DNA of 21,081 nt. Source: a bacterium (lineage in GTDB: Bacteria > DYJV01 > JALVYZ01). The notes beneath the pieces were generated by a model that worked only from the letters and a program-made list of their open reading frames with translations, did no database searches and was not told where the DNA came from. Made by a program: the position numbers and the translations under genes. The DNA is taken from contig JALVYZ010000382.1 of assembly GCA_027037705.1 (NCBI GenBank), positions 1 to 21,081 of the forward strand, written 5' to 3'. This document shows positions 1-9,523 of this stretch, in pieces (within the stretch, counting starts at the first letter, position 1; the number at the start of each line of letters is the position of its first letter).

Positions 1-1150
1 GAACTTCATTTCCATTATCATCTAAAATTTTAATAACATTTCCTGGTAAAGGTTTACCAACTGTTCTTCTTCTATATTCTGCTGGATCAGAAACCTTGCA
101 CCCACATATTGAACCTACATCCTGAGTGCCTAAATCGCTTGTAATAACTCCACCCATCCTTTCTTCTGCTTCCTGTGCTACATCTGGTGGTAAGTATCCT
201 CCAGCAGATCTTATAAATCTCAAATATTCAAGATTGTATTTTTCAACTTCTTTTTCAAGCATTCTTACTAAATGAGTTGGCACAACTCCTATTGCTGTTA
301 CATTCTCTTTTTCCATTAATTCAAGTGCTCCTTCTGGAGTAAACTCTTCAAGTAACACTATTTTTGCTCCTGCAATAGGTGCTGCAAAATAAACAAGAGT
401 CCCTGCTGCACCTCCAGCATGTGGTGCAATTGCTGCAACTGTATCATTTTTTGTTAAAAACCATAATTCTATTCTTCCCTTAGATGTGCATAATCTTGGA
501 GCAATAGGCCATTCAACTAATTTTGGAATTCCTGTTGTGCCAGTGGTTGATGTTAATAATGCAACATCTGTAAATGGATTAAATCTTCTCTTTTTAAATT
601 CTTCTTCTGGTAAACTTTTTTTAGCTTTTGCTATCTGCATAATAGAATAAAAATTATCTCCAAATCCTTCTGGCACCTCCTCTTCAAGCAGATAAAAATA
701 TTTTATTGTTTTATGCTTTTCATTTAGTTCCTGAAACATCTGCACATAGTCATGTTTTCTGTAAATATGAGGGATAACAACAGCTTTAGCCTGCGTTCTT
801 TCTATCATATAATCTAACTCTCTATGCCTCATATAAGGATAAACTGTTAATGAAATTAAGCCAGCTCTTTCAGCAGATATTCTTGCAAGCATTCCATAAG
901 CAGTATTTGGAGTTTGAATGATTACAACATCATCTTTTTTAAGTCCTGATTCTATAAAATGGGATGCAATACTATCAATTAATTCTTTTGCCTCTCCCCA
1001 TGTAATTCTGTACTTAGAATCAACTAATGCTTCTCTTTTGGGATATTTTTTTGCATTTTGAGCCCAGTAATCATAAAATGTTTCATCTGTCCAGTAACCT
1101 GCATTTTTAAACTCTTCAACCATTTCATCAGTATATCTAATTACTCTCAT
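1..1150 (-). CDS. Aryl/acyl-CoA ligase (AMP-forming), 3' end beyond window
   Basis: Translating the minus strand from the ATG at 1150 gives 383 uninterrupted codons running off the window start, so the C-terminal part is missing. The start is set by a GGAGGT ribosome site 6 nt upstream. The protein is a class I adenylate-forming enzyme: the phosphate-binding P-loop TSTTGTTGIPK lies near residues 200-210, and an SDLGTQDVGS stretch resembles the A5 region. The N-terminal half resembles the EntE/DhbE and benzoate-CoA ligase branch more than fatty acid ligases. Such enzymes activate a carboxylate with ATP and transfer it to CoA. Placed after a phenol-carboxylation gene set, the likely substrate is 4-hydroxybenzoate, giving 4-hydroxybenzoyl-CoA. 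Family is confident; substrate is inferred from context only. It is the last gene of the cluster inside the window. Confidence 0.85.
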   Translation of the reverse strand, partial: MRVIRYTDEMVEEFKNAGYWTDETFYDYWAQNAKKYPKREALVDSKYRITWGEAKELIDSIASHFIESGLKKDDVVIIQTPNTAYGMLARISAERAGLISLTVYPYMRHRELDYMIERTQAKAVVIPHIYRKHDYVQMFQELNEKHKTIKYFYLLEEEVPEGFGDNFYSIMQIAKAKKSLPEEEFKKRRFNPFTDVALLTSTTGTTGIPKLVEWPIAPRLCTSKGRIELWFLTKNDTVAAIAPHAGGAAGTLVYFAAPIAGAKIVLLEEFTPEGALELMEKENVTAIGVVPTHLVRMLEKEVEKYNLEYLRFIRSAGGYLPPDVAQEAEERMGGVITSDLGTQDVGSICGCKVSDPAEYRRRTVGKPLPGNVIKILDDNGNEV

Positions 1151-1174
1151 TTTTTACCTCCATCATTTTAGTTG

Positions 1175-1206
1175 ATGCGATAATGCGTAAATGCGTAAAT
1201 GCGTTT
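1175..1206. repeat. Octamer tandem array 1 (ATGCG-forward, 4 units)
   Basis: Four exact-length 8-bp units start at 1175, 1183, 1191 and 1199: ATGCGATA, ATGCGTAA, ATGCGTAA, ATGCGTTT. The array lies 25 nt before the ligase start codon and is inverted relative to array 2 (1231-1270). In the minus-strand transcript the two could pair into a hairpin in the ligase leader. Confidence 0.9.
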
Positions 1207-1230
1207 AATTTTTTTAATAATCATCTTTAT

Positions 1231-1270
1231 CTTCGCATATTCTCATTTTCACATCTACGCATTAACGCAA
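1231..1270. repeat. Octamer tandem array 2 (CGCAT orientation, 5 units)
   Basis: Five 8-bp units end in CAT or CAA: CTTCGCAT, ATTCTCAT, TTTCACAT, CTACGCAT, TAACGCAA. This is the reverse complement of the ATGCGTAA unit. It begins 2 nt after the stop codon of the small ORF 1273-1344 (minus-strand direction) and faces array 1 across a 24-nt spacer. Confidence 0.85.
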
Positions 1271-1272
1271 TA

Positions 1273-1344
1273 TCATTGCGAATCTTTGATGAGAAATGAA
1301 TATCTGATTTTTTGGAAAATCTTTTTAATGAATTGTTTTTGCAT
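1273..1344 (-). CDS. Possible 23-residue leader peptide
   Basis: A minus-strand ATG at 1344 opens a 23-codon frame ending in TGA at 1273-1275. It begins MQKQFIKK and is rich in Lys, Ile, Phe and Gln. An AGAGGAG ribosome site stands 8 nt upstream, and its left part lies in the 3' arm of the long hairpin at 1355-1395, so translation could depend on that hairpin opening. The peptide is basic and hydrophobic and matches no family I recognise. It could be a leader peptide, a small independent protein or chance; the strong ribosome site is the main argument for it. It lies about 120 nt upstream of the ligase start. Confidence 0.3.
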   Translation of the reverse strand: MQKQFIKKIFQKIRYSFLIKDSQ

Positions 1345-1354
1345 TGAATTTCTC

Positions 1355-1420
1355 CTCTTTAGCAAAATCCTTCACATAAGAATTTTACTAAAGAGAGGCA
1401 GGCATATCTTTTGCCCGCCT
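1355..1420 (-). ncRNA. Two adjacent RNA hairpins in the ligase leader
   Basis: Read on the minus strand, hairpin I (1420-1396) has an 8-bp stem with one G-U pair, arms GGCGGGC and GCCTGCC. Hairpin II (1395-1355) follows directly, with an 18-bp stem containing two U-G pairs and a 5-nt loop, arms beginning CTCTTTAG and ending GCTAAAGAG. All three non-Watson-Crick positions are G-U on the minus strand but A-C mismatches on the plus strand, so the minus-strand RNA is the better-folded one. The second stem runs into the ribosome site of the 23-codon ORF. No known riboswitch class is recognised. The plus strand would read hairpin I plus TTTTT as a terminator, but no plus-strand gene precedes it. 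Confidence 0.5.
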
Positions 1421-1429
1421 TTTTATATT

Positions 1430-1594
1430 AGTGTTGGTGTTAAATTTTTTGTTATTTATAGTTATTAATCGTAATTCATTGTAATTTATTGTTATTTAAC
1501 TGAACACAATTCATTGTTCACTAACCCTTTACTAACATCAATTAACCTGCAACTAACATAATCATTACTCCCGACTCCACACTCCACACTCCAA
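1430..1594. repeat. Composite short-repeat island A (6-, 10-, 10/11- and 7-bp units)
   Basis: Four arrays lie end to end. AGTGTT-GGTGTT is at 1430-1441. Five 10-bp units at 1451-1500 all begin GT (for example GTTATTTATA, GTAATTTATT). TAAC-centred units spaced 10-11 bp lie at about 1517-1558. Three 7-bp ACTCCAC units occupy 1574-1594. This fills the spacer after the outer-membrane protein gene, with no ORF supported in it. The order of array types matches islands B and C. Confidence 0.75.
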
Positions 1595-1604
1595 ACTATT
1601 TATA

Positions 1605-2588
1605 CTAATATCTCCAAATTACCTTAACCCATAAATTCTTTAATTGAGGTGCATTTCTTTCGTAAATTGTCTGTTGATATCTTACTGTTACAAAAAATCT
1701 TTTTATTTGAAACCATACACCAGGACCAATTGCTAACTGTTTTGAATGAAGTTCTTCATCTTTTTCTATTATCTGTTTTAATGGAGCAGGTAACTTACCT
1801 TTACCGTCATAATCATCATCTGTTGTCTGTTGATACCAGAATCCACCAATTCCTATTCTGAATTTTTTATTTAACGCATAAGAGATATTATAGTCAAAGT
1901 GAAACTCCTGACCAGGTGTTCTATCAAGCTTTACTCCATATGGAGTTGGATGATCATCTTCTTTTGTGCTGAAGTCATACATAAATTTTAATGAAATTTC
2001 CCATGGACCAGGAAGATATGTAACTGCAAATACTGGCTCAAATGTCCAATAATTGTGATGCATATTTGCCTGAAAATTATCATCATCACTTATTCCTGGA
2101 GTATAAATATCAGGCAATGAGAAAACAGTATGCAATTTACCACCTAAAAAATGATGTGCTAAAATAAATGGACTGTAGATAAAATATGGAAAATAAAAAT
2201 CTGAATAACCAGATTCACCTTTTGGTCCAACTGGAGCATTGAATTTAAAATGTGAATAAAGTAATGGAATAAATAAATGTTGACCATAACTTCCATTTAA
2301 TAATTTGTACTTGCTTATCCATATTGTTCTTAAAACATCCGCAAAAATAGTTGCATGGTCTAATACCCTTGTCCCATTTGGAAATCTTGCTTCATTACCC
2401 CTGTTATCTTTCAACTTTGGAGCATTTAACATTGCAAAATAATTTACTCCATAAAATCCTGGTGGTGGAACTGCTGCAACTAAAAATCCCTCTGCTCCAT
2501 TTGGATATACTCCACTACCTCCTGCAAATAACGGGATAGCACATAATGAAAAGATAAAAACCAATAGACTTAATAAAATTTTTTTCAT
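1605..2588 (-). CDS. Outer-membrane protein, SphA/phenol MetA-degradation-like family
   Basis: The 327-residue protein starts at an ATG preceded by a strong AAGGAGGT site. It opens with a signal peptide (MKKILLSLLVFIFSL..., cleavage probably after FAG near residue 23). The mature N-terminus carries the YPNGAEGFLVAAVPPPG segment typical of SphA/MetA-like outer-membrane proteins found beside aromatic catabolic genes. The rest alternates aromatic and polar residues in beta-strand fashion and ends WVKVIWRY, with a terminal aromatic residue as in beta-barrels. Its probable role is passage or binding of a hydrophobic aromatic substrate at the outer membrane; this is inferred from family and location. 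It follows the S23-like gene, and its upstream region is an octamer array. Confidence 0.75.
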   Translation of the reverse strand: MKKILLSLLVFIFSLCAIPLFAGGSGVYPNGAEGFLVAAVPPPGFYGVNYFAMLNAPKLKDNRGNEARFPNGTRVLDHATIFADVLRTIWISKYKLLNGSYGQHLFIPLLYSHFKFNAPVGPKGESGYSDFYFPYFIYSPFILAHHFLGGKLHTVFSLPDIYTPGISDDDNFQANMHHNYWTFEPVFAVTYLPGPWEISLKFMYDFSTKEDDHPTPYGVKLDRTPGQEFHFDYNISYALNKKFRIGIGGFWYQQTTDDDYDGKGKLPAPLKQIIEKDEELHSKQLAIGPGVWFQIKRFFVTVRYQQTIYERNAPQLKNLWVKVIWRY

Positions 2589-2610
2589 GCTTACCTCCTT
2601 AATGTAGTTT

Positions 2611-2642
2611 ATGCGTAAATGCGTATATGCGTATATGCGTAC
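2611..2642. repeat. Octamer tandem array 3 (ATGCG-forward, 4 units)
   Basis: Four units start at 2611, 2619, 2627 and 2635: ATGCGTAA, ATGCGTAT, ATGCGTAT, ATGCGTAC. The array fills the gap between the S23-like stop codon (2643-2645) and the outer-membrane protein start. Its first 15 bases (2611-2625) are perfectly inverted at 3049-3063 on the other side of the S23-like gene. Confidence 0.9.
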
Positions 2643-3005
2643 TCATTTCTTTTTCCCTTTTTGATATTTTATAAAATTTAGAATCATTCTTCTTAATTTT
2701 TCTATTTCTTCAAAAATCTCATTATACTCTTTTTTAGCAACATAATTTAATTTATCCGTTATTATTAATAAAGTTTCTAATTCAGATAATGAACCTAATG
2801 CAATATATAGAAATTGAATGAATTCTTTTATACTCTGTCTTGCTGCTCCTTCTGCAATATTTGTTGGTATTGAAACTGCACTTCTCTGCATTTGTAAAAC
2901 AATTCCAAATTTTTCATTATCTGGAAAATTTTCAGTAAGCTTATATATTTTTTCAACCAATTTTATCCCTTCTTTCCAAATATCTAAATCTTTATGAGTT
3001 ATCAT
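2643..3005 (-). CDS. Four-helix-bundle protein, S23 ribosomal intervening-sequence/Avd-like family
   Basis: The 120-residue protein matches the stand-alone four-helix-bundle family first known from 23S rRNA intervening sequences and related to the Avd accessory protein of diversity-generating retroelements. Diagnostic segments are DLDIWKEGIKLVEKIYKLTE, the central QMQRSAVSIPTNIAEGAAR and SLSELETLLII. Length is normal for the family. Its molecular role is not known; nucleic-acid binding is suggested for relatives. No rRNA and no reverse transcriptase is nearby. It has no evident ribosome site, sits inside a catabolic operon to which it is functionally foreign, and is bracketed by inverted octamer arrays 3 and 4, which suggests insertion as a cassette. 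Confidence 0.88.
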   Translation of the reverse strand: MITHKDLDIWKEGIKLVEKIYKLTENFPDNEKFGIVLQMQRSAVSIPTNIAEGAARQSIKEFIQFLYIALGSLSELETLLIITDKLNYVAKKEYNEIFEEIEKLRRMILNFIKYQKGKKK

Positions 3006-3031
3006 ATTTTACAATTTTTTTGACAACACAT

Positions 3032-3111
3032 TATCGCATTTACACATCTACGCATTTACGCATCCACTCATTTTCACATCTACGCATCTACTCATCCACG
3101 CATTCACTCAT
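3032..3111. repeat. Octamer tandem array 4 (CGCAT orientation, 10 units)
   Basis: Ten consecutive 8-bp units end in CAT at 3039, 3047, 3055, 3063, 3071, 3079, 3087, 3095, 3103 and 3111 with no slip in register. The consensus is YYACKCAT, the reverse complement of the ATGCGTAA-type unit. The last unit contains the TGA stop codon of the UbiX gene (3104-3106) and its final Glu codon. It is the longest array in the window. Confidence 0.92.
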
Positions 3112-3676
3112 TTTCTCCCCATCTTTTAAACAAATTATGCTCTATATTAAATTGGTCTAACGCTTTTCCAATTGTTTGATTAATAATATCATTAATATCC
3201 TTTGGTTCATGGTAAAATGATGGAACAGGGGGCAATATTATTCCACCATTTAATATTACCTTTTTCATTAACTCAATATGAGATAAATTTAAAGGAGTTT
3301 CTCTCACAATTAAAACAACTTTTCTCCTCTCTTTTAAGCATACATCTGCAGCTCTGATTAACAGATTTACATTAAAAGAATTAGCAATTCCTGATAAAGT
3401 TTTAATAGAACAAGGTGCAATTATCATACCTTCAGTTTTAAAAGAACCGCTTGAAACTTTTGCTGCCATATCTTTAATATCATAAACAATATCTGCTAAA
3501 TTTTTAACTTCCTCTATACTCCAATCTTTAACTTCTAATTTCAAAGTTAATTCTGCACTTTCTGAAATAATTAAATGAGATTCAACACTATCAATACTTT
3601 TTAAAACTTCTAAAAGTCTTATACCATAAATAATTCCTGAAGCTCCTGAAATCCCAACAATTATTCTTTTTTTCAT
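3104..3676 (-). CDS. ubiX: UbiX-type flavin prenyltransferase
   Basis: The 190-residue protein is a full-length UbiX/Pad1-family enzyme, which joins dimethylallyl phosphate to FMN to make prenylated FMN, the cofactor of UbiD decarboxylases. The N-terminal GISGASGIIYG nucleotide loop is at residues 8-18. The family block APCSIKTLSGIANS, the RKVVLIVRETPL segment and the C-terminal GGIILPPVPSFY segment are all present. It serves the UbiD protein encoded two genes upstream. The start codon lies in an AT-rich stretch with no Shine-Dalgarno sequence, 202 nt after the preceding gene and just downstream of repeat island B. The stop codon lies inside octamer array 4, so the coding end may have been trimmed or extended by repeat growth. 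Confidence 0.9.
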   Translation of the reverse strand: MKKRIIVGISGASGIIYGIRLLEVLKSIDSVESHLIISESAELTLKLEVKDWSIEEVKNLADIVYDIKDMAAKVSSGSFKTEGMIIAPCSIKTLSGIANSFNVNLLIRAADVCLKERRKVVLIVRETPLNLSHIELMKKVILNGGIILPPVPSFYHEPKDINDIINQTIGKALDQFNIEHNLFKRWGENE

Positions 3677-3689
3677 TTTTAAATTAATT

Positions 3690-3811
3690 AGTGTTGGTGT
3701 TGGTGATGGTGTTAGTTCTTAATAATTTTAAATTTTGAATTTTAAATTTTAAATTAACCATTTTCACTAACCTTAACTAACCTTAACTAACCTCAATAAC
3801 TTCAACTAACC
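3690..3811. repeat. Composite short-repeat island B (6-, 7- and 10-bp units)
   Basis: Three arrays occur in order. 6-bp AGTGTT/GGTGTT units, four copies, are at 3690-3713. 7-bp TTTTAAA/TTTTGAA units, four copies, are at 3726-3753. CTAACC-centred 10-bp units (TTAACTAACC) have cores at 3767, 3777, 3787 and, after a 19-nt step, 3806. The island lies between the LpdD-like and UbiX genes. Array order and the hexamer unit are the same as in islands A and C. Confidence 0.8.
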
Positions 3812-3862
3812 TCCCATCGCCTATAGCCAAGAGACTCTTGCCATTTTAGATTTTTCATTAAT

Positions 3863-3894
3863 TTCCGCATCTTCGCATTTACGCATCCCCGCAT
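3863..3894. repeat. Octamer tandem array 5 (CGCAT orientation, 4 units)
   Basis: The units are TTCCGCAT, CTTCGCAT, TTACGCAT and CCCCGCAT, ending at 3870, 3878, 3886 and 3894. The array overlaps the 3' end of the LpdD-like gene. The unit TTACGCAT contains its TAA stop, and the neighbouring units encode its last residues (CGDA). Confidence 0.88.
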
Positions 3895-4259
3895 ATTCGG
3901 TTTATCACTTTCTCACACAACTTCTCACAACACTCCAATATCTTTTCAATATCATTTTTTGCAATATTGTCAAAATGAATTCCAGCTACAGCAACAACTT
4001 TTTTATTTAAAGCTTTTGAAACTTTTTCTGAAAACATTTTAGCCACTATATCTTCTTTATGAGCTGGTAAGGTTATAACTGATGTTGTAATTGTATCTTT
4101 TCCTTTTTTAATAATTGAAGCAGTGGGATATGAAATCCCAACTGCTCCTATATGATATTCCCCTCCTCCAATAATAATTACCAAATCTTCCCCTACTTTA
4201 ATAATATTTGCAGTAAGTTTAAAATCATCAATTTTTTCCTCTACCTTAATCAAGCCCAT
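3879..4259 (-). CDS. LpdD-like prenyl-FMN accessory/chaperone protein
   Basis: This small protein has the look of the LpdD-type accessory family that accompanies UbiD-like decarboxylases such as gallate decarboxylase. It has an alternating beta-rich N-terminal half with GGGEYHIGAVGISYPTA, then TSVITLPAHKEDIVAKMFSEKVSK and a helical C-terminus. The frame is open back to a TTG at 4277, but ATG 4259 is preferred because GGGA lies 5 nt upstream; ATG 4265 is an alternative. With that start (126 residues) it overlaps the UbiD gene by 14 nt, implying translational coupling. It probably helps load or mature prenylated FMN in the UbiD partner. The C-terminus is encoded by octamer repeats. The assignment rests on motif feel plus context, so it is moderate. 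Confidence 0.6.
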   Translation of the reverse strand: MGLIKVEEKIDDFKLTANIIKVGEDLVIIIGGGEYHIGAVGISYPTASIIKKGKDTITTSVITLPAHKEDIVAKMFSEKVSKALNKKVVAVAGIHFDNIAKNDIEKILECCEKLCEKVINRICGDA

Positions 4260-5685
4260 ATTCATCCCAATTATCAAGCACTTTCTTTTTCATTTCTTCG
4301 TCAAGGAAAATTTCCATTGGTTTTCTCTTCCATTCAAATGGAATTGTTGCAATCATTTGAATTCTACTTACAAGTGATCTTCTATCCATATAATCTTCCC
4401 ATATTGGCAATGATGGGTCAAGAGGTGTTGACCTTGCCTTTTTGATTAATTGGGTATCCTCAATTGGATTGTATCTTGTAGATAAAGCCCACATTACCTT
4501 ATCCCAATCATCTGCTGGAATATCATCATCCACTACAATAATTCCCTTTAATCCATAATGTCCTGTATAGCTTGCCATTACTGCATCTGCTACCTGCTGA
4601 GCGTGGCCTGGATACATCTGTTTAACTGACACAATTGCCCAGAATCTTCCAGTTGATTCTGGTGGAATGAAAACAGATTGAATTCCTGGAATTTTCATTG
4701 TCATTAAATCTGTCCATAAAGTAGCAGTTCTATTTAATGATTGAATCATGTGTGTGTCTGTAATTGGTTTTCCAACTGTTGTTGACCAGAAAATATAATC
4801 ATTTCTCATATAAACTCTTTTTACATCAATCCAAGGTTTAGGCCATTCATCACTTTTTTTACCAGAATAGTAACCTGTGTATTCTCCAAATGGTCCTTCT
4901 TTTCTGAAATTTTCAGGATTTGGGTCAACAAATCCAGCTAATACTATTTCTGCTGTTGCATCCATTGGTAATCCAGTTATTTCCTCTTTTATAACATCAA
5001 TAGGCTCCCCTCTCAATGCTCCCATTACATCAAGCTCACTAACCTGTCCCATTGTTGGTGATGAACCTGTTAAAAATCCAAGAGGATCCCCACCAATTAC
5101 ATATAATACTGGCATCTTTTCGCCACGTTCTCCATACTGTCTTAACATAATTTCAGCATGTTTTCCTTTGATTAACTGCAATCCAACACTTTTTTCATCT
5201 AAAATCATTCCTCTGTAAGTTCCAAGATTTACCCAACCTGTATCAGGATCTTTTGTTACAAGATAAACTGCTGTACCAAAAAATCTTCCACCATCTTTTG
5301 GATACATAAAGGGGACAGGTATATCAAATAAATTTATATTATTCCCTTCAATTACATTTTCTAAAACTGGACCTGAATCAACATAGTTTGGTGGAATTAA
5401 TTCTTTTGTTGCTAATTCCATCCAATGTCTTGACATTTCACACATTGATGTACCTACTGGCAAACCAAGTGCAATTGCGAATCTCTCTTTTGTAGAATAA
5501 GCACTTGTTAATACTGGATTTTTATATCCTTTTACATTTTCAAATAGAAGAGCTGGACCTTTTTTCTCTTCATTAATTTTAGCAACATGGGATAACTCTA
5601 AATTCCAGTCCACTTCCTTTTTCACTCTTTTTAGCTGTCCATGTTCTTCACATTTCTTAATAAAATCCCTTAAATCCATTTTCAT
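4246..5685 (-). CDS. UbiD-family (de)carboxylase, probable phenylphosphate carboxylase
   Basis: The 479-residue protein is a full-length UbiD-family enzyme using prenylated FMN. It has the N-terminal MDLRDFIKKCEEHGQLKRV segment, the NLGTYRGMI segment that should carry the active-site Arg, and GPFGEYTGYY with the conserved acidic residues (Glu near 268). An upstream TTG at 5700 extends the frame, but the GGAGGT ribosome site at 5694-5699 lies inside that extension, so ATG 5685 is the real start. Downstream of a phenylphosphate-synthase-like pair, the likely reaction is carboxylation of phenylphosphate to 4-hydroxybenzoate; decarboxylation of a hydroxybenzoate or gallate-like acid is the alternative. 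In Thauera the carboxylase is a multi-subunit enzyme with two UbiD-like chains; only one is visible here. Confidence 0.85.
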   Translation of the reverse strand: MKMDLRDFIKKCEEHGQLKRVKKEVDWNLELSHVAKINEEKKGPALLFENVKGYKNPVLTSAYSTKERFAIALGLPVGTSMCEMSRHWMELATKELIPPNYVDSGPVLENVIEGNNINLFDIPVPFMYPKDGGRFFGTAVYLVTKDPDTGWVNLGTYRGMILDEKSVGLQLIKGKHAEIMLRQYGERGEKMPVLYVIGGDPLGFLTGSSPTMGQVSELDVMGALRGEPIDVIKEEITGLPMDATAEIVLAGFVDPNPENFRKEGPFGEYTGYYSGKKSDEWPKPWIDVKRVYMRNDYIFWSTTVGKPITDTHMIQSLNRTATLWTDLMTMKIPGIQSVFIPPESTGRFWAIVSVKQMYPGHAQQVADAVMASYTGHYGLKGIIVVDDDIPADDWDKVMWALSTRYNPIEDTQLIKKARSTPLDPSLPIWEDYMDRRSLVSRIQMIATIPFEWKRKPMEIFLDEEMKKKVLDNWDEYGLD

Positions 5686-5816
5686 AAAATTTACCTCCAA
5701 TTTTTATTTTATTTTTAAAGTTATTTCCTAATTAAAAGTTCAGAAAGAATCTTTAATTAAAACATGATAGCGAATTTTAATTATAATCTTTTTTATAAAA
5801 ATCCCTTTTTTAACCT

Positions 5817-6887
5817 TCATTTAATTTTAACTCCATGGATTAAGAAGTCAACCATTGCTCCCATTGCACCTTTAGAAGCATCAAGTTTTTTCTTTTCTTC
5901 TTCTCTCTTTTTATTCCATACAGATTCTGGTCTCACCTGTAAAATTATTACATTTTCAGGGAATTTCATATCTTTATCAATTCCAAATTCAATATCATAT
6001 GGCTTTCCATAATAATCTTCAATTCTAATAGCGACTTCACATAAATATCTAATTTCTTCATCAGTTAAACAGAACTTATTTCTCCTCTCTTCATCTACCT
6101 CTTTTTGAACAATATCACTTCCACCTTCTCTATAAACACATTCTATCTCTTTAGCACCTTTCACCCTTTTAACAACTTCAAAAGTTACTTTATCAATTAA
6201 ATAAGTATCAGGAGTAACAAGTCCACTAACCACTGCTTCACCGAGACCATAGCTTGCATCAATTGATATTTTTGATAAATCTCCATTAACTGGATTTAAT
6301 GTAAAAATAACTCCAGATACTCTTGAATTCACCATTTTAGGGATTCCAACTCCTATATTAAAAATTAGTCCCATTCCCCTATTTAATCTATAATGTATTG
6401 CTTCAACATTATAAGAACTTGCCCAGCACATTTTAATATATTTAATTAAATCATCATGTCCCCTTATATTAAGATATGTTTCCATTTGTCCAGGCATACT
6501 AACAGCACCACTTGAACGGACTGCAACAGGAACATCTTTAACCCCAACCTGATCGCAAAGTTTATCATAATTTTCTAAAATTTCTTTCTCAAGATCTTTT
6601 GGCATATCAGCTTCTTCAATCATATTCATTAATGTTTTACTGATTTCTTTTACTTGTTCATTATTAGGAGTGGGATATTTTTCAACTAATCTCTCCATCT
6701 CTTTCTTTATCCCAGACTTATCAACAAAGTAATCATTTGCCTTTATTGTTATTGCAAAGCCGGGACTTACAGGAATCCCGGCATGGAGCATTTCTCCTAA
6801 ATTTGCATTTTTCTTTCCAACAAGGTTGAAATTTTCACCTTTAAGTTCATTATACCAGATTATGTTTCTATTACTTAAATCAGTCAT
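5817..6887 (-). CDS. ppsB: Phenylphosphate synthase-like subunit B (PEP-synthase ATP-binding domain)
   Basis: The 356-residue (about 40 kDa) protein corresponds only to the N-terminal nucleotide-binding part of phosphoenolpyruvate synthase. It has LVGKKNANLGEML near the N-terminus, VAVRSSGAVSMPGQMETYL in the centre, ASYGLGEAVVSGLVTPD, and ends shortly after ILQVRPES. The phospho-His and PEP-binding parts are absent; the former is on the neighbouring upstream gene. This split matches phenylphosphate synthase, where the 40-kDa subunit takes phosphate from ATP and passes it to a His on the 70-kDa subunit. The start has a GGAGG site, and the gap to the upstream gene is 15 nt. The gene is followed by 131 AT-rich nt before ubiD that contain a perfect TATAAT (minus strand, 5785-5780) and a weak hairpin at about 5730-5760, so an internal promoter is possible. 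Confidence 0.82.
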   Translation of the reverse strand: MTDLSNRNIIWYNELKGENFNLVGKKNANLGEMLHAGIPVSPGFAITIKANDYFVDKSGIKKEMERLVEKYPTPNNEQVKEISKTLMNMIEEADMPKDLEKEILENYDKLCDQVGVKDVPVAVRSSGAVSMPGQMETYLNIRGHDDLIKYIKMCWASSYNVEAIHYRLNRGMGLIFNIGVGIPKMVNSRVSGVIFTLNPVNGDLSKISIDASYGLGEAVVSGLVTPDTYLIDKVTFEVVKRVKGAKEIECVYREGGSDIVQKEVDEERRNKFCLTDEEIRYLCEVAIRIEDYYGKPYDIEFGIDKDMKFPENVIILQVRPESVWNKKREEEKKKLDASKGAMGAMVDFLIHGVKIK

Positions 6888-6902
6888 TTTAAATTCCTCC
6901 AG

Positions 6903-8750
6903 TTAAGCTCTTTCAAGAATTTTTACATATCCCTCATCACCATCAATCTCAATCAAATCTCCAGTCTTAATGACAGTTGTGGCATTACCTGTTCCAACAA
7001 CTGTTGGTAATCCATACTCTCTACAAACAATAGCAGCATGACACATTGGACCTCCAACATCTGTTACTGCACCTGCAATTTTAGTAAATGCTGGAGCCCA
7101 GCTTGGAGATGTTGTTGGTGCTACCAAAATTTCTCCTTCCTGTAATTGGTCTAATTCTTCAACTTTTCTAATAACTCTTGCTTTTCCAGAAACCTTTCCA
7201 GAAGAACCTGGAGTTCCATGTAGTACATCAGTTTCTCCTTCTTCCCCTGTTTCTAAAGCAGATAACCACTTTTTCAATGTATCAGTGGTGACTCCCCATA
7301 GCACAATTGTAAATGGCTCAGTTACTTTCTCTGGTGGAATACCAAGAGCTGGTGGAGGTGTCCATTCTTCAAATTTTTTGTAAACTTCTTTTCTCCATGC
7401 AATTTCATCTGGCCAGTAACTTCTACCTGCTGGGATTGTCCCTGTTGCCCAGTTAGCAGTTATATCATGTAAGGTTACTTTAATTTCATGTCTATTCATA
7501 TACCATATATCTTCCACATCTTTTATAACATCCCAATTTACTAAAATTTTTGCAAGGTCTCTCATCTTATTCCAGAAAATACTATGGAAACAATGTTCAA
7601 CATAAAATAGGTGATTTTCAACATATGGAAAAACTTTTTTTGACAGATTAAGCTGCTCTTCAAAGGCTTTTCTTGTATCTGCATCTTTTATAAGTTTTAA
7701 ATATCCTTCAACTATTTTTTCACTTTCTTCTTTAACTTTTTCTATATCTCTTCCAACTTTGTTTCCTTTTTTCAATTCAGCAATATGCATTTTAATTGAA
7801 GATAAAGGGATATTTAAATCATCATTCCAGGATTTATCATCATGATACCATCCAGTTCCTGTGGAAATCCAGAACCATGGATCTCTTGCTTTTTCAAATT
7901 CCTCAAGCCATTTTTTTCCTGCTTCATTTTCTTCAAGCTTTTTTCTTAATTCTTCAAAATCTGAATATGATTCAATTAAATCTGCTAATTTTAATTCAAG
8001 AGCAAGTTTTGCAAGTCTTATTAATTCTGCATCTGGTTTATACATAACAACATCAATTCCTGATACCATCTTAGTTAAATTATGCATTGGAATATCTGGG
8101 AAAATTTGATTTGCAGTATTTATAAATGTAACATAAGCAGCATATCCAAGATTTAACTGTTCAAAGTGATACTGCCAGATTTTAAATCCAAGGTCTATAA
8201 GTTCATCATATTTCTTCAACAAAAGATAGCCACTGCTTAATCCTCTATGTTCAAAAACAACACTATCATCTTCCATATCAGGTAAATCGTTAAATGATAT
8301 ACTTTTAAGCTCATCAATTGTTGCATTTGCTTTTTTAAGCCAGTTTTCATAAATAGAATCCCAGTTTTCATAGTAATGTCCAGCTCTTTTTAAGAAATGC
8401 TGGACTCTCTCTTCAACTTCTTTCTGATCAAGAACAGGCACTGGTGTAATGTAAACATAACCATTTAAAATTCTATGGTCTATACCCCTCGCAGGTGGTA
8501 CCATAAAAATTCTGTTGTTATACTGTGATAATCCAAGAAACCACGCTTCATCCCAAATTAAATCAAATGGTGGATGGGGTTTTGGATAATGCAATCCGTC
8601 ATAGTACCACAATACGCTTTCTTCATATTTTTTTCTTTCTGGATCCTTTTCAGTTGCCCATTGGTAGTAATATGGATACATTCTCTCCCAGCCTTCTGTG
8701 CCAGGAATTGGTTCAATTTCACTTGCAAATTTAAATCTTTTATTACTCAT
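6903..8750 (-). CDS. ppsA: Phenylphosphate synthase-like subunit A (phospho-His domain)
   Basis: The 615-residue (about 70 kDa) protein ends in a PEP-utilising-enzyme mobile domain: LVAPTTSPSWAPAFTKIAGA is followed by GGPMCHAAIVCREYGLPTVVG, with the phospho-acceptor His at residue 571. The chain stops right after this domain, so the PEP/pyruvate-binding barrel of PEP synthase is missing and the acceptor must be something else. The first 500 or so residues, rich in Trp, Tyr and His, form the large domain presumed to bind phenol. The size and split match the 70-kDa subunit of phenylphosphate synthase, which with subunit B converts phenol and ATP to phenylphosphate, AMP and phosphate. A GGAGGGG ribosome site precedes the ATG. 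No CBS-domain third subunit is visible nearby. Confidence 0.82.
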   Translation of the reverse strand: MSNKRFKFASEIEPIPGTEGWERMYPYYYQWATEKDPERKKYEESVLWYYDGLHYPKPHPPFDLIWDEAWFLGLSQYNNRIFMVPPARGIDHRILNGYVYITPVPVLDQKEVEERVQHFLKRAGHYYENWDSIYENWLKKANATIDELKSISFNDLPDMEDDSVVFEHRGLSSGYLLLKKYDELIDLGFKIWQYHFEQLNLGYAAYVTFINTANQIFPDIPMHNLTKMVSGIDVVMYKPDAELIRLAKLALELKLADLIESYSDFEELRKKLEENEAGKKWLEEFEKARDPWFWISTGTGWYHDDKSWNDDLNIPLSSIKMHIAELKKGNKVGRDIEKVKEESEKIVEGYLKLIKDADTRKAFEEQLNLSKKVFPYVENHLFYVEHCFHSIFWNKMRDLAKILVNWDVIKDVEDIWYMNRHEIKVTLHDITANWATGTIPAGRSYWPDEIAWRKEVYKKFEEWTPPPALGIPPEKVTEPFTIVLWGVTTDTLKKWLSALETGEEGETDVLHGTPGSSGKVSGKARVIRKVEELDQLQEGEILVAPTTSPSWAPAFTKIAGAVTDVGGPMCHAAIVCREYGLPTVVGTGNATTVIKTGDLIEIDGDEGYVKILERA

Positions 8751-8769
8751 TTTCCCCTCCTTGTTTTAT

Positions 8770-8853
8770 AGTGATGGTGATAGTGTTGGTGTTAGTTTTC
8801 AATAAAAAATTTTAAATTTTGAATTATTTTTCTTCAACCTTCTACCTTCCACC
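8770..8853. repeat. Composite short-repeat island C (6-, 7- and 7-bp units)
   Basis: Four 6-bp units lie at 8770-8793 (AGTGAT, GGTGAT, AGTGTT, GGTGTT). TTTTAAA and TTTTGAA follow at 8810-8823. Three 7-bp TTCNACC units occupy 8833-8853 (TTCAACC, TTCTACC, TTCCACC). The island lies between ORF221 and the ppsA-like gene. Its order of array types is the same as in islands A and B, with a different unit in the last array. Confidence 0.8.
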
Positions 8854-8857
8854 TTAA

Positions 8858-9523
8858 CTACAGCTTCAACCATCTTGGTTTTTCAAATCTTTCTGTACAT
8901 CTTAAAATTTTTGATGATTTTACTTCAACAAAATTTTTTCTTACCTCTTTTTCAACATCTCTAAATTCTGGCAATCTCATTAATCTTCCAATATCGTAAG
9001 GGTCTTTGAAACTAAATTCTACTATATAATCTGCTTCTCCTCCGTATAAGACTCTCCATTCCTCTGTTAATTCCACAAAATCAATTTTATCAAAAATATC
9101 AATTAATCTTTTTATAAATTCTCGATATTCTGGTTTTTTATTTGGCTTAACATTGTAATGATAATTTAATTTCCATACATTTTCCTGAATTTTATATTCA
9201 CCTTTTGAAACTCTTCCTGTTGAAAATAGTAATACAGCTTTTCTATTTCTAATATAAAACGCAAGTTTATTTGTAAGTTCAATAAAATCATTGGATATTA
9301 CCAGCTCATTTACTCCAACAGGGTCATCCATACTTAAACAAGCAATTACCCCTGGTCCCTGTCCAACCTCAACATAATAACCACCTACAACATTAAATCC
9401 TATTTGTTTAATTTTAGGAATATATTCTTCAGTAACAAATTTTTCATACTCCTCTTCTTTTTCTTGAATTATATCCCAATATTGAACGTATAATACATTC
9501 CTATATAATGATAACTCCGCCAT
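8858..9523 (-). CDS. Tandem ABM-like (ferredoxin-fold) protein of unknown function
   Basis: The 221-residue protein is the first gene of the catabolic cluster, with a strong GAGGAGG ribosome site. No established family name can be given. It appears to contain two similar halves of about 100 residues, each shaped like a dimeric alpha-beta barrel monomer. Half one runs YVQYWDI...IPKIKQIGFNVVGGYY...FYIRNRKAVLLFSTGR; half two runs KLNYHYNV...WRVLYGGEADYIVEFSF...VEVKSSKILRCTER. It has no signal peptide, membrane segment or CBS motif, so it does not look like PpsC, although its size (about 26 kDa) is close to that 24-kDa subunit. Position suggests a role with the phenylphosphate-synthase-like subunits or in substrate or product binding. 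Function unknown. Confidence 0.7.
   Translation of the reverse strand: MAELSLYRNVLYVQYWDIIQEKEEEYEKFVTEEYIPKIKQIGFNVVGGYYVEVGQGPGVIACLSMDDPVGVNELVISNDFIELTNKLAFYIRNRKAVLLFSTGRVSKGEYKIQENVWKLNYHYNVKPNKKPEYREFIKRLIDIFDKIDFVELTEEWRVLYGGEADYIVEFSFKDPYDIGRLMRLPEFRDVEKEVRKNFVEVKSSKILRCTERFEKPRWLKL

Follow-up and report, generated by a model that had tools for sequence, protein, structure and literature searches.

The DNA analysed here (the window) comprises positions 1 to 21,081 of contig JALVYZ010000382.1, from a bacterial draft genome of 2.05 Mb (496 contigs, 93% complete; GCA_027037705.1), and carries in the spacers of one operon five short tandem arrays with an 8-bp period, two of which enclose a gene of the S23/IVP family. 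Scanning for at least four of five matches to the core ATGCG at every 8 bp returned exactly these five arrays and none from recA (10591) to the window end, as the original prediction had it. Tandem Repeats Finder independently recovered four of them, missing 1231-1270. Two details had to be revised: the fourth array, previously given as ten units at 3032-3111, is present and spans 3024-3111 with 11 units, and the unit, formerly called exact, holds its 8-bp register while the bases within it vary, as the original prediction also states. Four of the five arrays pair up to form two elements (1175-1270 and 2611-3111). The S23/IVP gene between the facing arrays of the second element had earlier been passed over.

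1175-1206, plus strand: array of 4 units
1231-1270, minus strand: array of 5 units
1175-1270, minus strand: gene-less element in which a 24-bp loop separates arms 1231-1270 and 1175-1206
2611-2642, plus strand: array of 4 units, 3′ arm of the S23 cassette; ATGCGTAN on the plus strand, CGCAT on the transcribed strand
2643-3005, minus strand: intact S23/IVP gene, 120 aa (PF05635, E 4.6e-40)
3024-3111, minus strand: array of 11 units, 5′ arm of the S23 cassette; ATGNGNNN on the minus strand
2611-3111, minus strand: whole S23 cassette, in the order 5′ array, short leader, S23 open reading frame (ORF), 3′ array
3863-3894, minus strand: lone arm without a partner, 4 units; ATGCG on the minus strand

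The S23 cassette lies between a ubiX-like gene (3104-3676) and a MetA-type porin gene (1605-2588). Its two arrays, 3024-3111 upstream of the S23 gene and 2611-2642 downstream, face each other, and the 3′ arm follows the S23 stop codon and precedes the Shine-Dalgarno sequence of the porin gene. The ubiX-like gene takes its stop codon (3104-3106) from array 3024-3111, and a PAC_bac-like ORF (end 3879) takes its own from array 3863-3894, indicating that insertion extends into the 3′ ends of both ORFs; the lone arm 3863-3894 is probably a remnant. In the gene-less element, which folds into a hairpin with a minimum free energy (MFE) of -22.0 (z -3.4), arm 1175-1206 stands directly 5′ of the Shine-Dalgarno sequence and ATG of a coenzyme A (CoA) ligase gene. 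The ORF at 2643-3005 scores 136.6 bits against PF05635 (cut-off 33.8), which places it in the S23/IVP family, and is the sole PF05635 match in its genome. It is also the sole gene of the cassette, which has no transposase family match. AlphaFold predicts a four-helix bundle (pLDDT 94), and Foldseek matches this model to 2gsc (the pentameric XCC0516; TM-score 0.90) and 2rld (BT_0352) and, more distantly, to Avd of the Bordetella phage diversity-generating retroelement (DGR; 4dwl, TM-score 0.79) and to Avd in the DGR ribonucleoprotein (8ub*).

The arrays belong, as arms, to elements that are scattered over the genome, and are not a feature of one operon as had been supposed. With at most one mismatch, (ATGCGNNN)3 has 55 + 79 occurrences in the 2.05-Mb genome and zero or one in each of 40 other genomes, so that the 134 occurrences are not due to chance. 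In the window and in about 20 regions sampled from the genome with the pattern as a guide, array pairs within 200 bp are convergent in 17 cases and divergent in none. Because the arrays converge, each pair makes a long imperfect hairpin, and the 17 gene-less elements have hairpin MFE z-scores of -3.4 to -9.9 against mononucleotide shuffles. These results bear out two suggestions of the original prediction, that orientation is nonrandom and that facing arrays can pair in RNA. Its orientation rule, by which the transcribed strand reads ATGCG after stop codons and CGCAT before starts, also holds, and arises because convergent pairs fill stop-to-start spacers. Element arms in this genome fall into two sequence types, and the same type lies directly before the downstream Shine-Dalgarno sequence and start codon in 15/18 elements, S23 cassette included. 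The genome contains many gene-less hairpins built from the array unit of its single S23 cassette. That such hairpins are eroded neighbors of many S23 genes is ruled out by the one PF05635 copy.

S23 genes of other genomes share this architecture. The first distant PF05635 genes lie between facing arrays of other units, for example GGTAAAG/TTTACCT or, in a perfectly inverted pair, AGAAGAC/TCTTCTG. We compared 80 loci picked by protein similarity alone (from a three-row S23 alignment) in Bacteroidota, Cloacimonadota, Nitrospirota, Acidobacteriota, Chloroflexota, Campylobacterota, ANME-1 archaea, and others. Complementarity between the 150-bp flanks has a median of 20 for S23 genes (n = 78) vs. 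10 for 444 control ORFs (P = 3e-25), a conservative comparison, since the controls come from the same contigs and some of these hold further cassettes. The strongest flank period is 7 in 83 and 8 in 29 of the S23 loci (112/115). Both flanks are 7/8-periodic for 59/90 S23 ORFs and for 9/511 other ORFs (Fisher’s exact test, P = 1.1e-48), an enrichment of S23 among array-flanked genes with an odds ratio of about 106.

Polarity and period are likewise shared across these loci. The G-rich arm is the 5′ arm in 66/73 cases (P = 4e-13), and typical 5′ units are NGTRATG (period 7) and NGTNNATG (period 8), the type to which ATGCGTNN of the window belongs. Units vary between genomes while the 7/8 period is constant. 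Period class tracks the S23 tree (13 changes vs. 23 in shuffles; 0/500 shuffles as low), a pattern that could reflect protein recognition or simply co-inheritance. The neighboring genes are both in sense with S23 in 59 loci and both antisense in 2, and this near-exclusive sense orientation fits a cassette reliant on the host transcript, or selection against antisense copies. Among 61 Flavobacterium genomes, 59 carry S23, and both S23-less genomes are without GTGANNN arrays, too few S23-less genomes to relate S23 copies to these arrays.

Distant genome G009 has 19 partial PF05635 matches, many as divergent pairs a few hundred bp apart, which is a different arrangement. At L145 (7915-8245), strong 7-bp arrays lie on both sides of a 110-aa ORF with no S23 profile match, which may be other cargo or a diverged S23. 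Finally, two S23 cassettes about 1.2 kb apart in G030 C4 (L057 and L072) share one 5′ arm, the second being truncated, and are a recent local duplication.

Comparison of related genomes revealed the cassette both present and absent at fixed sites, as well as gene-less derivatives. In related Nostoc plasmids, the spacer behind a TraM-like gene is empty and 50-52 bp long at L173, L179, L177, and L180; at L162 and L174, it is filled with an S23 cassette, and these two alleles differ by one 7-bp unit. The same spacer holds a gene-less array hairpin with the left junction of the S23 cassette at L175, and another array-bounded insert at L176. At a Nostocales site with 97.7% identical flanks, the empty allele (L181) reads ...aaaaagtaaTTAACAAATAATTatg..., the filled allele (L172) has the cassette with GTAA repeated, and L182 has a truncated remnant. 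An overlapping stop/start, TAATG, is empty in L184 and filled in L167, and L167/L185 and L183/L168 are further Nostocales site pairs. In Flavobacterium, an ABC-exporter gene pair is joined as TAAATG in two species, where it is empty (L208, L209), while in three others an S23 cassette occupies this junction (L216, L222, L226) and in two more it holds arrays that lack S23 (L213, L214); the arms of the F. kayseriense cassette match other places of its own genome. Insertions are at stop/start junctions, and unrelated operons are hit. That one spacer may be filled in one relative and empty, truncated, or gene-less in another indicates that the cassette is mobile.

Cyanobacterial cassettes connect these elements with short tandemly repeated repetitive (STRR) sequences. 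STRRs are described as repeats without a gene. In Nostoc, GGGGAGT-type heptamers of the STRR kind flank S23 genes, so the resemblance to cyanobacterial STRRs noted before is a real kinship. The window unit, at 8 bp, is not itself a heptamer. Plasmid S23 genes are mostly from Nostocales. An S23 gene of Nostoc edaphicum lies between the two ribonucleotide reductase genes and has arms of (GGGGAGT/GGGAGTA)n and (ACTCCCT)n, and other cyanobacterial arms are made of GGGAACA, GGGTGTA, or GACAGGT. Two cassettes lie between cas6 and cas4 of type I-D CRISPR operons (L164 and L169, on Pseudanabaena and Anabaena plasmids). The arrays of L164, AAAAGCT/AAAAGCC, are direct, not inverted. S23 genes in cas loci have been reported earlier (PMC3936711), and the cas6/cas4 insertions may explain that report.

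Together, these results make it very likely, in our judgment, that the arrays are the inverted arms of a small mobile S23 cassette and of gene-less copies of its ends, with excision and a role for S23 as follows. The layout is a 7- or 8-bp tandem array, a short leader, the S23/IVP gene, and a complementary array. In the operon transcript, the arms would anneal to form a long stem whose loop holds the S23 ORF. By analogy with the S23-bearing intervening sequence (IVS) of 23S rRNA, RNase III may cut this stem-loop out, which would leave the host genes expressed. Because the 7/8 spacing is constant, the protein forms a pentameric ring, and it is related to Avd, we hypothesize that an Avd-like S23 pentamer binds the repeated GT-rich units, and S23 might help to move its own cassette and, in trans, the gene-less copies. 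A resident reverse transcriptase or Y1 transposase would not be needed, as far as the draft genome shows.

The cassette resembles several known systems. The 23S rRNA IVS of Coxiella is 428 nt long, has an S23 ORF and a 28-bp stem, and is cleaved by RNase III (PMC4990558); rRNA IVSs have been called selfish, and mobility has been proposed for them, with the ORF needed for it (PMC4990558). As in these IVSs (Leptospira, Coxiella, and others; about 430 bp), the S23 ORF here is in a loop between complementary ends. Unlike them, the cassette lies between protein-coding genes and not in an rRNA gene, with no match in an Rfam scan of the window, its arms are 7/8-bp tandem arrays, gene-less copies are dispersed, and empty sites are seen. 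The object works like an rRNA IVS but lacks the location that defines that family, and the best name for it is an S23 cassette of operon spacers with tandem-array arms. It also recalls a DNA transposon with its miniature inverted-repeat transposable element, since one array unit forms the terminal inverted repeats of both the S23 cassette and the gene-less elements, except that the partner cassette encodes S23 and no known transposase. The S23 protein has the fold of Avd of DGRs, whereas no reverse transcriptase, template, or variable repeat lies beside the window S23.

Two published repeat families follow similar rules. GGGAATC heptamers of Xanthomonas occur in convergent pairs at 70-75 per genome and have been interpreted as quadruplexes, and in Xanthomonas and Nostoc heptamers that follow a stop the sense strand is the G-rich one, whereas in those that precede a start it is the antisense strand (PMC4692102). 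An orientation rule nearly identical to that of the window and convergent pairs were thus already on record, and the rule is not peculiar to this operon. Compared by published description, the window arrays share with the GGGAATC and GGGGA(C/T)T heptamers an intergenic location and close convergent pairs, and differ in their 8-bp unit without G tracts. That report does not mention S23 and gives no general link of heptamers to mobile elements (PMC4692102). Xanthomonas campestris has an S23 protein, XCC0516 (structure 2gsc). TAACTGA repeats of Beggiatoaceae, Cyanobacteria, and Bacteroidetes are mostly directly before start codons and have been read as translational regulation; horizontal spread was suggested with no evident mechanism, and S23 was not mentioned (PMC4679880). 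Again by published description, they are like the window arrays in their place before start codons, and unlike them in unit length. We found no account linking tandem arrays with S23 genes in the open-access PMC literature, and a paywalled or preprint account may exist.

Several observations weigh against a mobile S23 cassette. In this genome, arm pairing in cis is no better than pairing across elements (18.3 vs. 19.7), also with elements oriented, so that exact pairing is not what is conserved. Apparent duplications at four cyanobacterial sites are only 3-5 bp and vary (GTAA, ATG, TTCTA, TCA), and they are no more than suggestive of target site duplications. No relative is near enough to show the window site empty, about a third of S23 ORFs fail the strict two-flank array test, and 3/11 cyanobacterial-plasmid cassettes with same-strand neighbors are antisense. 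Finally, with the same arm facing the Shine-Dalgarno sequence or start in 15/18 elements, the gene-less hairpins could have a host-regulatory role.

A broader form of that idea, to which we give a minor share of the probability, holds that the hairpins belong to the host as regulatory or processing structures (RNase III sites in 5′ untranslated regions, attenuators, or translational switches) and that S23 is just one flanked gene. Its appeal lies in the arm before the start codon, in the stability of the folds (z -3.4 to -9.9), in the related rule in Xanthomonas, where most repeats are transcribed (PMC4692102), and in the regulatory role proposed for TAACTGA heptamers (PMC4679880). It is difficult to reconcile with the S23 enrichment among array-flanked genes, with cassettes present or absent between close relatives and in unrelated operons, and with units that change between genomes while the 7/8 period stays. 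Alternatively, the elements could resemble repetitive extragenic palindromic sequences (REPs) and bacterial interspersed mosaic elements, moved in trans by a Y1 transposase of the REP-associated tyrosine transposase kind, or could be products of a resident reverse transcriptase; S23 would then be a passenger or helper. Dispersed intergenic hairpins do look like REPs, the S23 fold is that of Avd, the partner of the DGR reverse transcriptase, and Y1 genes are commoner with S23 (13/17 S23-containing genomes vs. 9/24 others). However, the window’s draft genome (93% complete) has no match at E ≤ 1e-8 to either Y1_Tnp (PF01797) or RVT_1 (PF00078), and RVT_1 is not enriched in S23-containing genomes (4/17 vs. 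7/24). To our knowledge, the arms of REPs are not tandem arrays. We regard this explanation as improbable, and we reject a reverse transcriptase or Y1 transposase as a required partner, both being without a match in this draft genome and RVT_1 not being enriched with S23.

Two accounts that concern the repeats themselves have very little probability. Ordinary minisatellites would arise by replication slippage, with facing pairs produced by chance or inversion, and near-identical plasmid alleles do differ by one repeat. Pairs that are only convergent, periods of only 7 and 8, G-rich-5′ polarity across phyla, and the tight S23 association refute slippage as a full account, which we consider highly implausible; it probably alters array length. 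Equally slight is the chance that the importance of the arrays lies in folding into G-quadruplexes, as DNA or RNA, a role proposed for the GGGAATC repeats of Xanthomonas and Nostoc. Some families are G-tract repeats (GGGGAGT, GGGAATC), and GGGAATC and GGGGACT form quadruplexes in vitro (PMC4692102), but the same architecture is seen without G tracts in the ATGCGTAA units of the window and in most S23 arms (GTGAATA, AAAAGCT, AGTTACG), and such arrays refute quadruplex formation as a general function.

Other array families are also present in the window.

1440-1600, minus strand: spacer of other short array families, GTTATTNATT-type with period 10 and ACTCCNN with period 7
3691-3813, minus strand: spacer in which arrays of other units, GTGTTG.. 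and ACTAACC.., face each other around AATTTTA, as judged by inspection

The second of these is probably a gene-less relative that belongs to another family. The spacers 1440-1560, 3691-3813, and 8768-8855 contain the units GTTATTNATT, GTTAGTG/ACTAACC, AATTTTA, and CTTCAAC, which probably mark further families of elements of this kind. Elsewhere in the genome, several elements (L041, L042, L046, L048, L051) have, directly 5′ of the ATGCG element, an unpaired array of a second family, (GGAGTNN)n-AAT, and the ACTCCACACTCC stretch of the window (1566-1598) is a member of it. Genes within 1-9523 encode the CoA ligase, the MetA-type porin, the ubiX-like flavoprotein, a UbiD decarboxylase, and a pair related to pyruvate phosphate dikinase (PPDK) and phosphoenolpyruvate (PEP)-utilizing proteins. 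With the PPDK/PEP pair resembling phenylphosphate synthase, this region looks like an anaerobic phenol-degradation cluster.

A mobile S23 cassette would give one origin to several short intergenic repeat families, which over decades have been described one by one and attributed to regulation or quadruplexes. It would also provide a biological setting for S23/IVP, a large family with solved structures and no known function, and S23 genes in the cas operons of Pseudanabaena and Anabaena would be plainly explained as insertions in operon spacers. More tentatively, and with the balance of our judgment against it, S23/IVP may itself be the mobility protein of a tiny (about 400-500 bp), widespread autonomous element: an Avd-like pentamer would recognize its own 7/8-nt arm units and drive stop/start insertion without a known transposase or reverse transcriptase, and the cyanobacterial, Xanthomonas, and Beggiatoaceae repeats would be its gene-less progeny. 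If S23 alone does move the cassette, it would represent a new kind of mobility protein.

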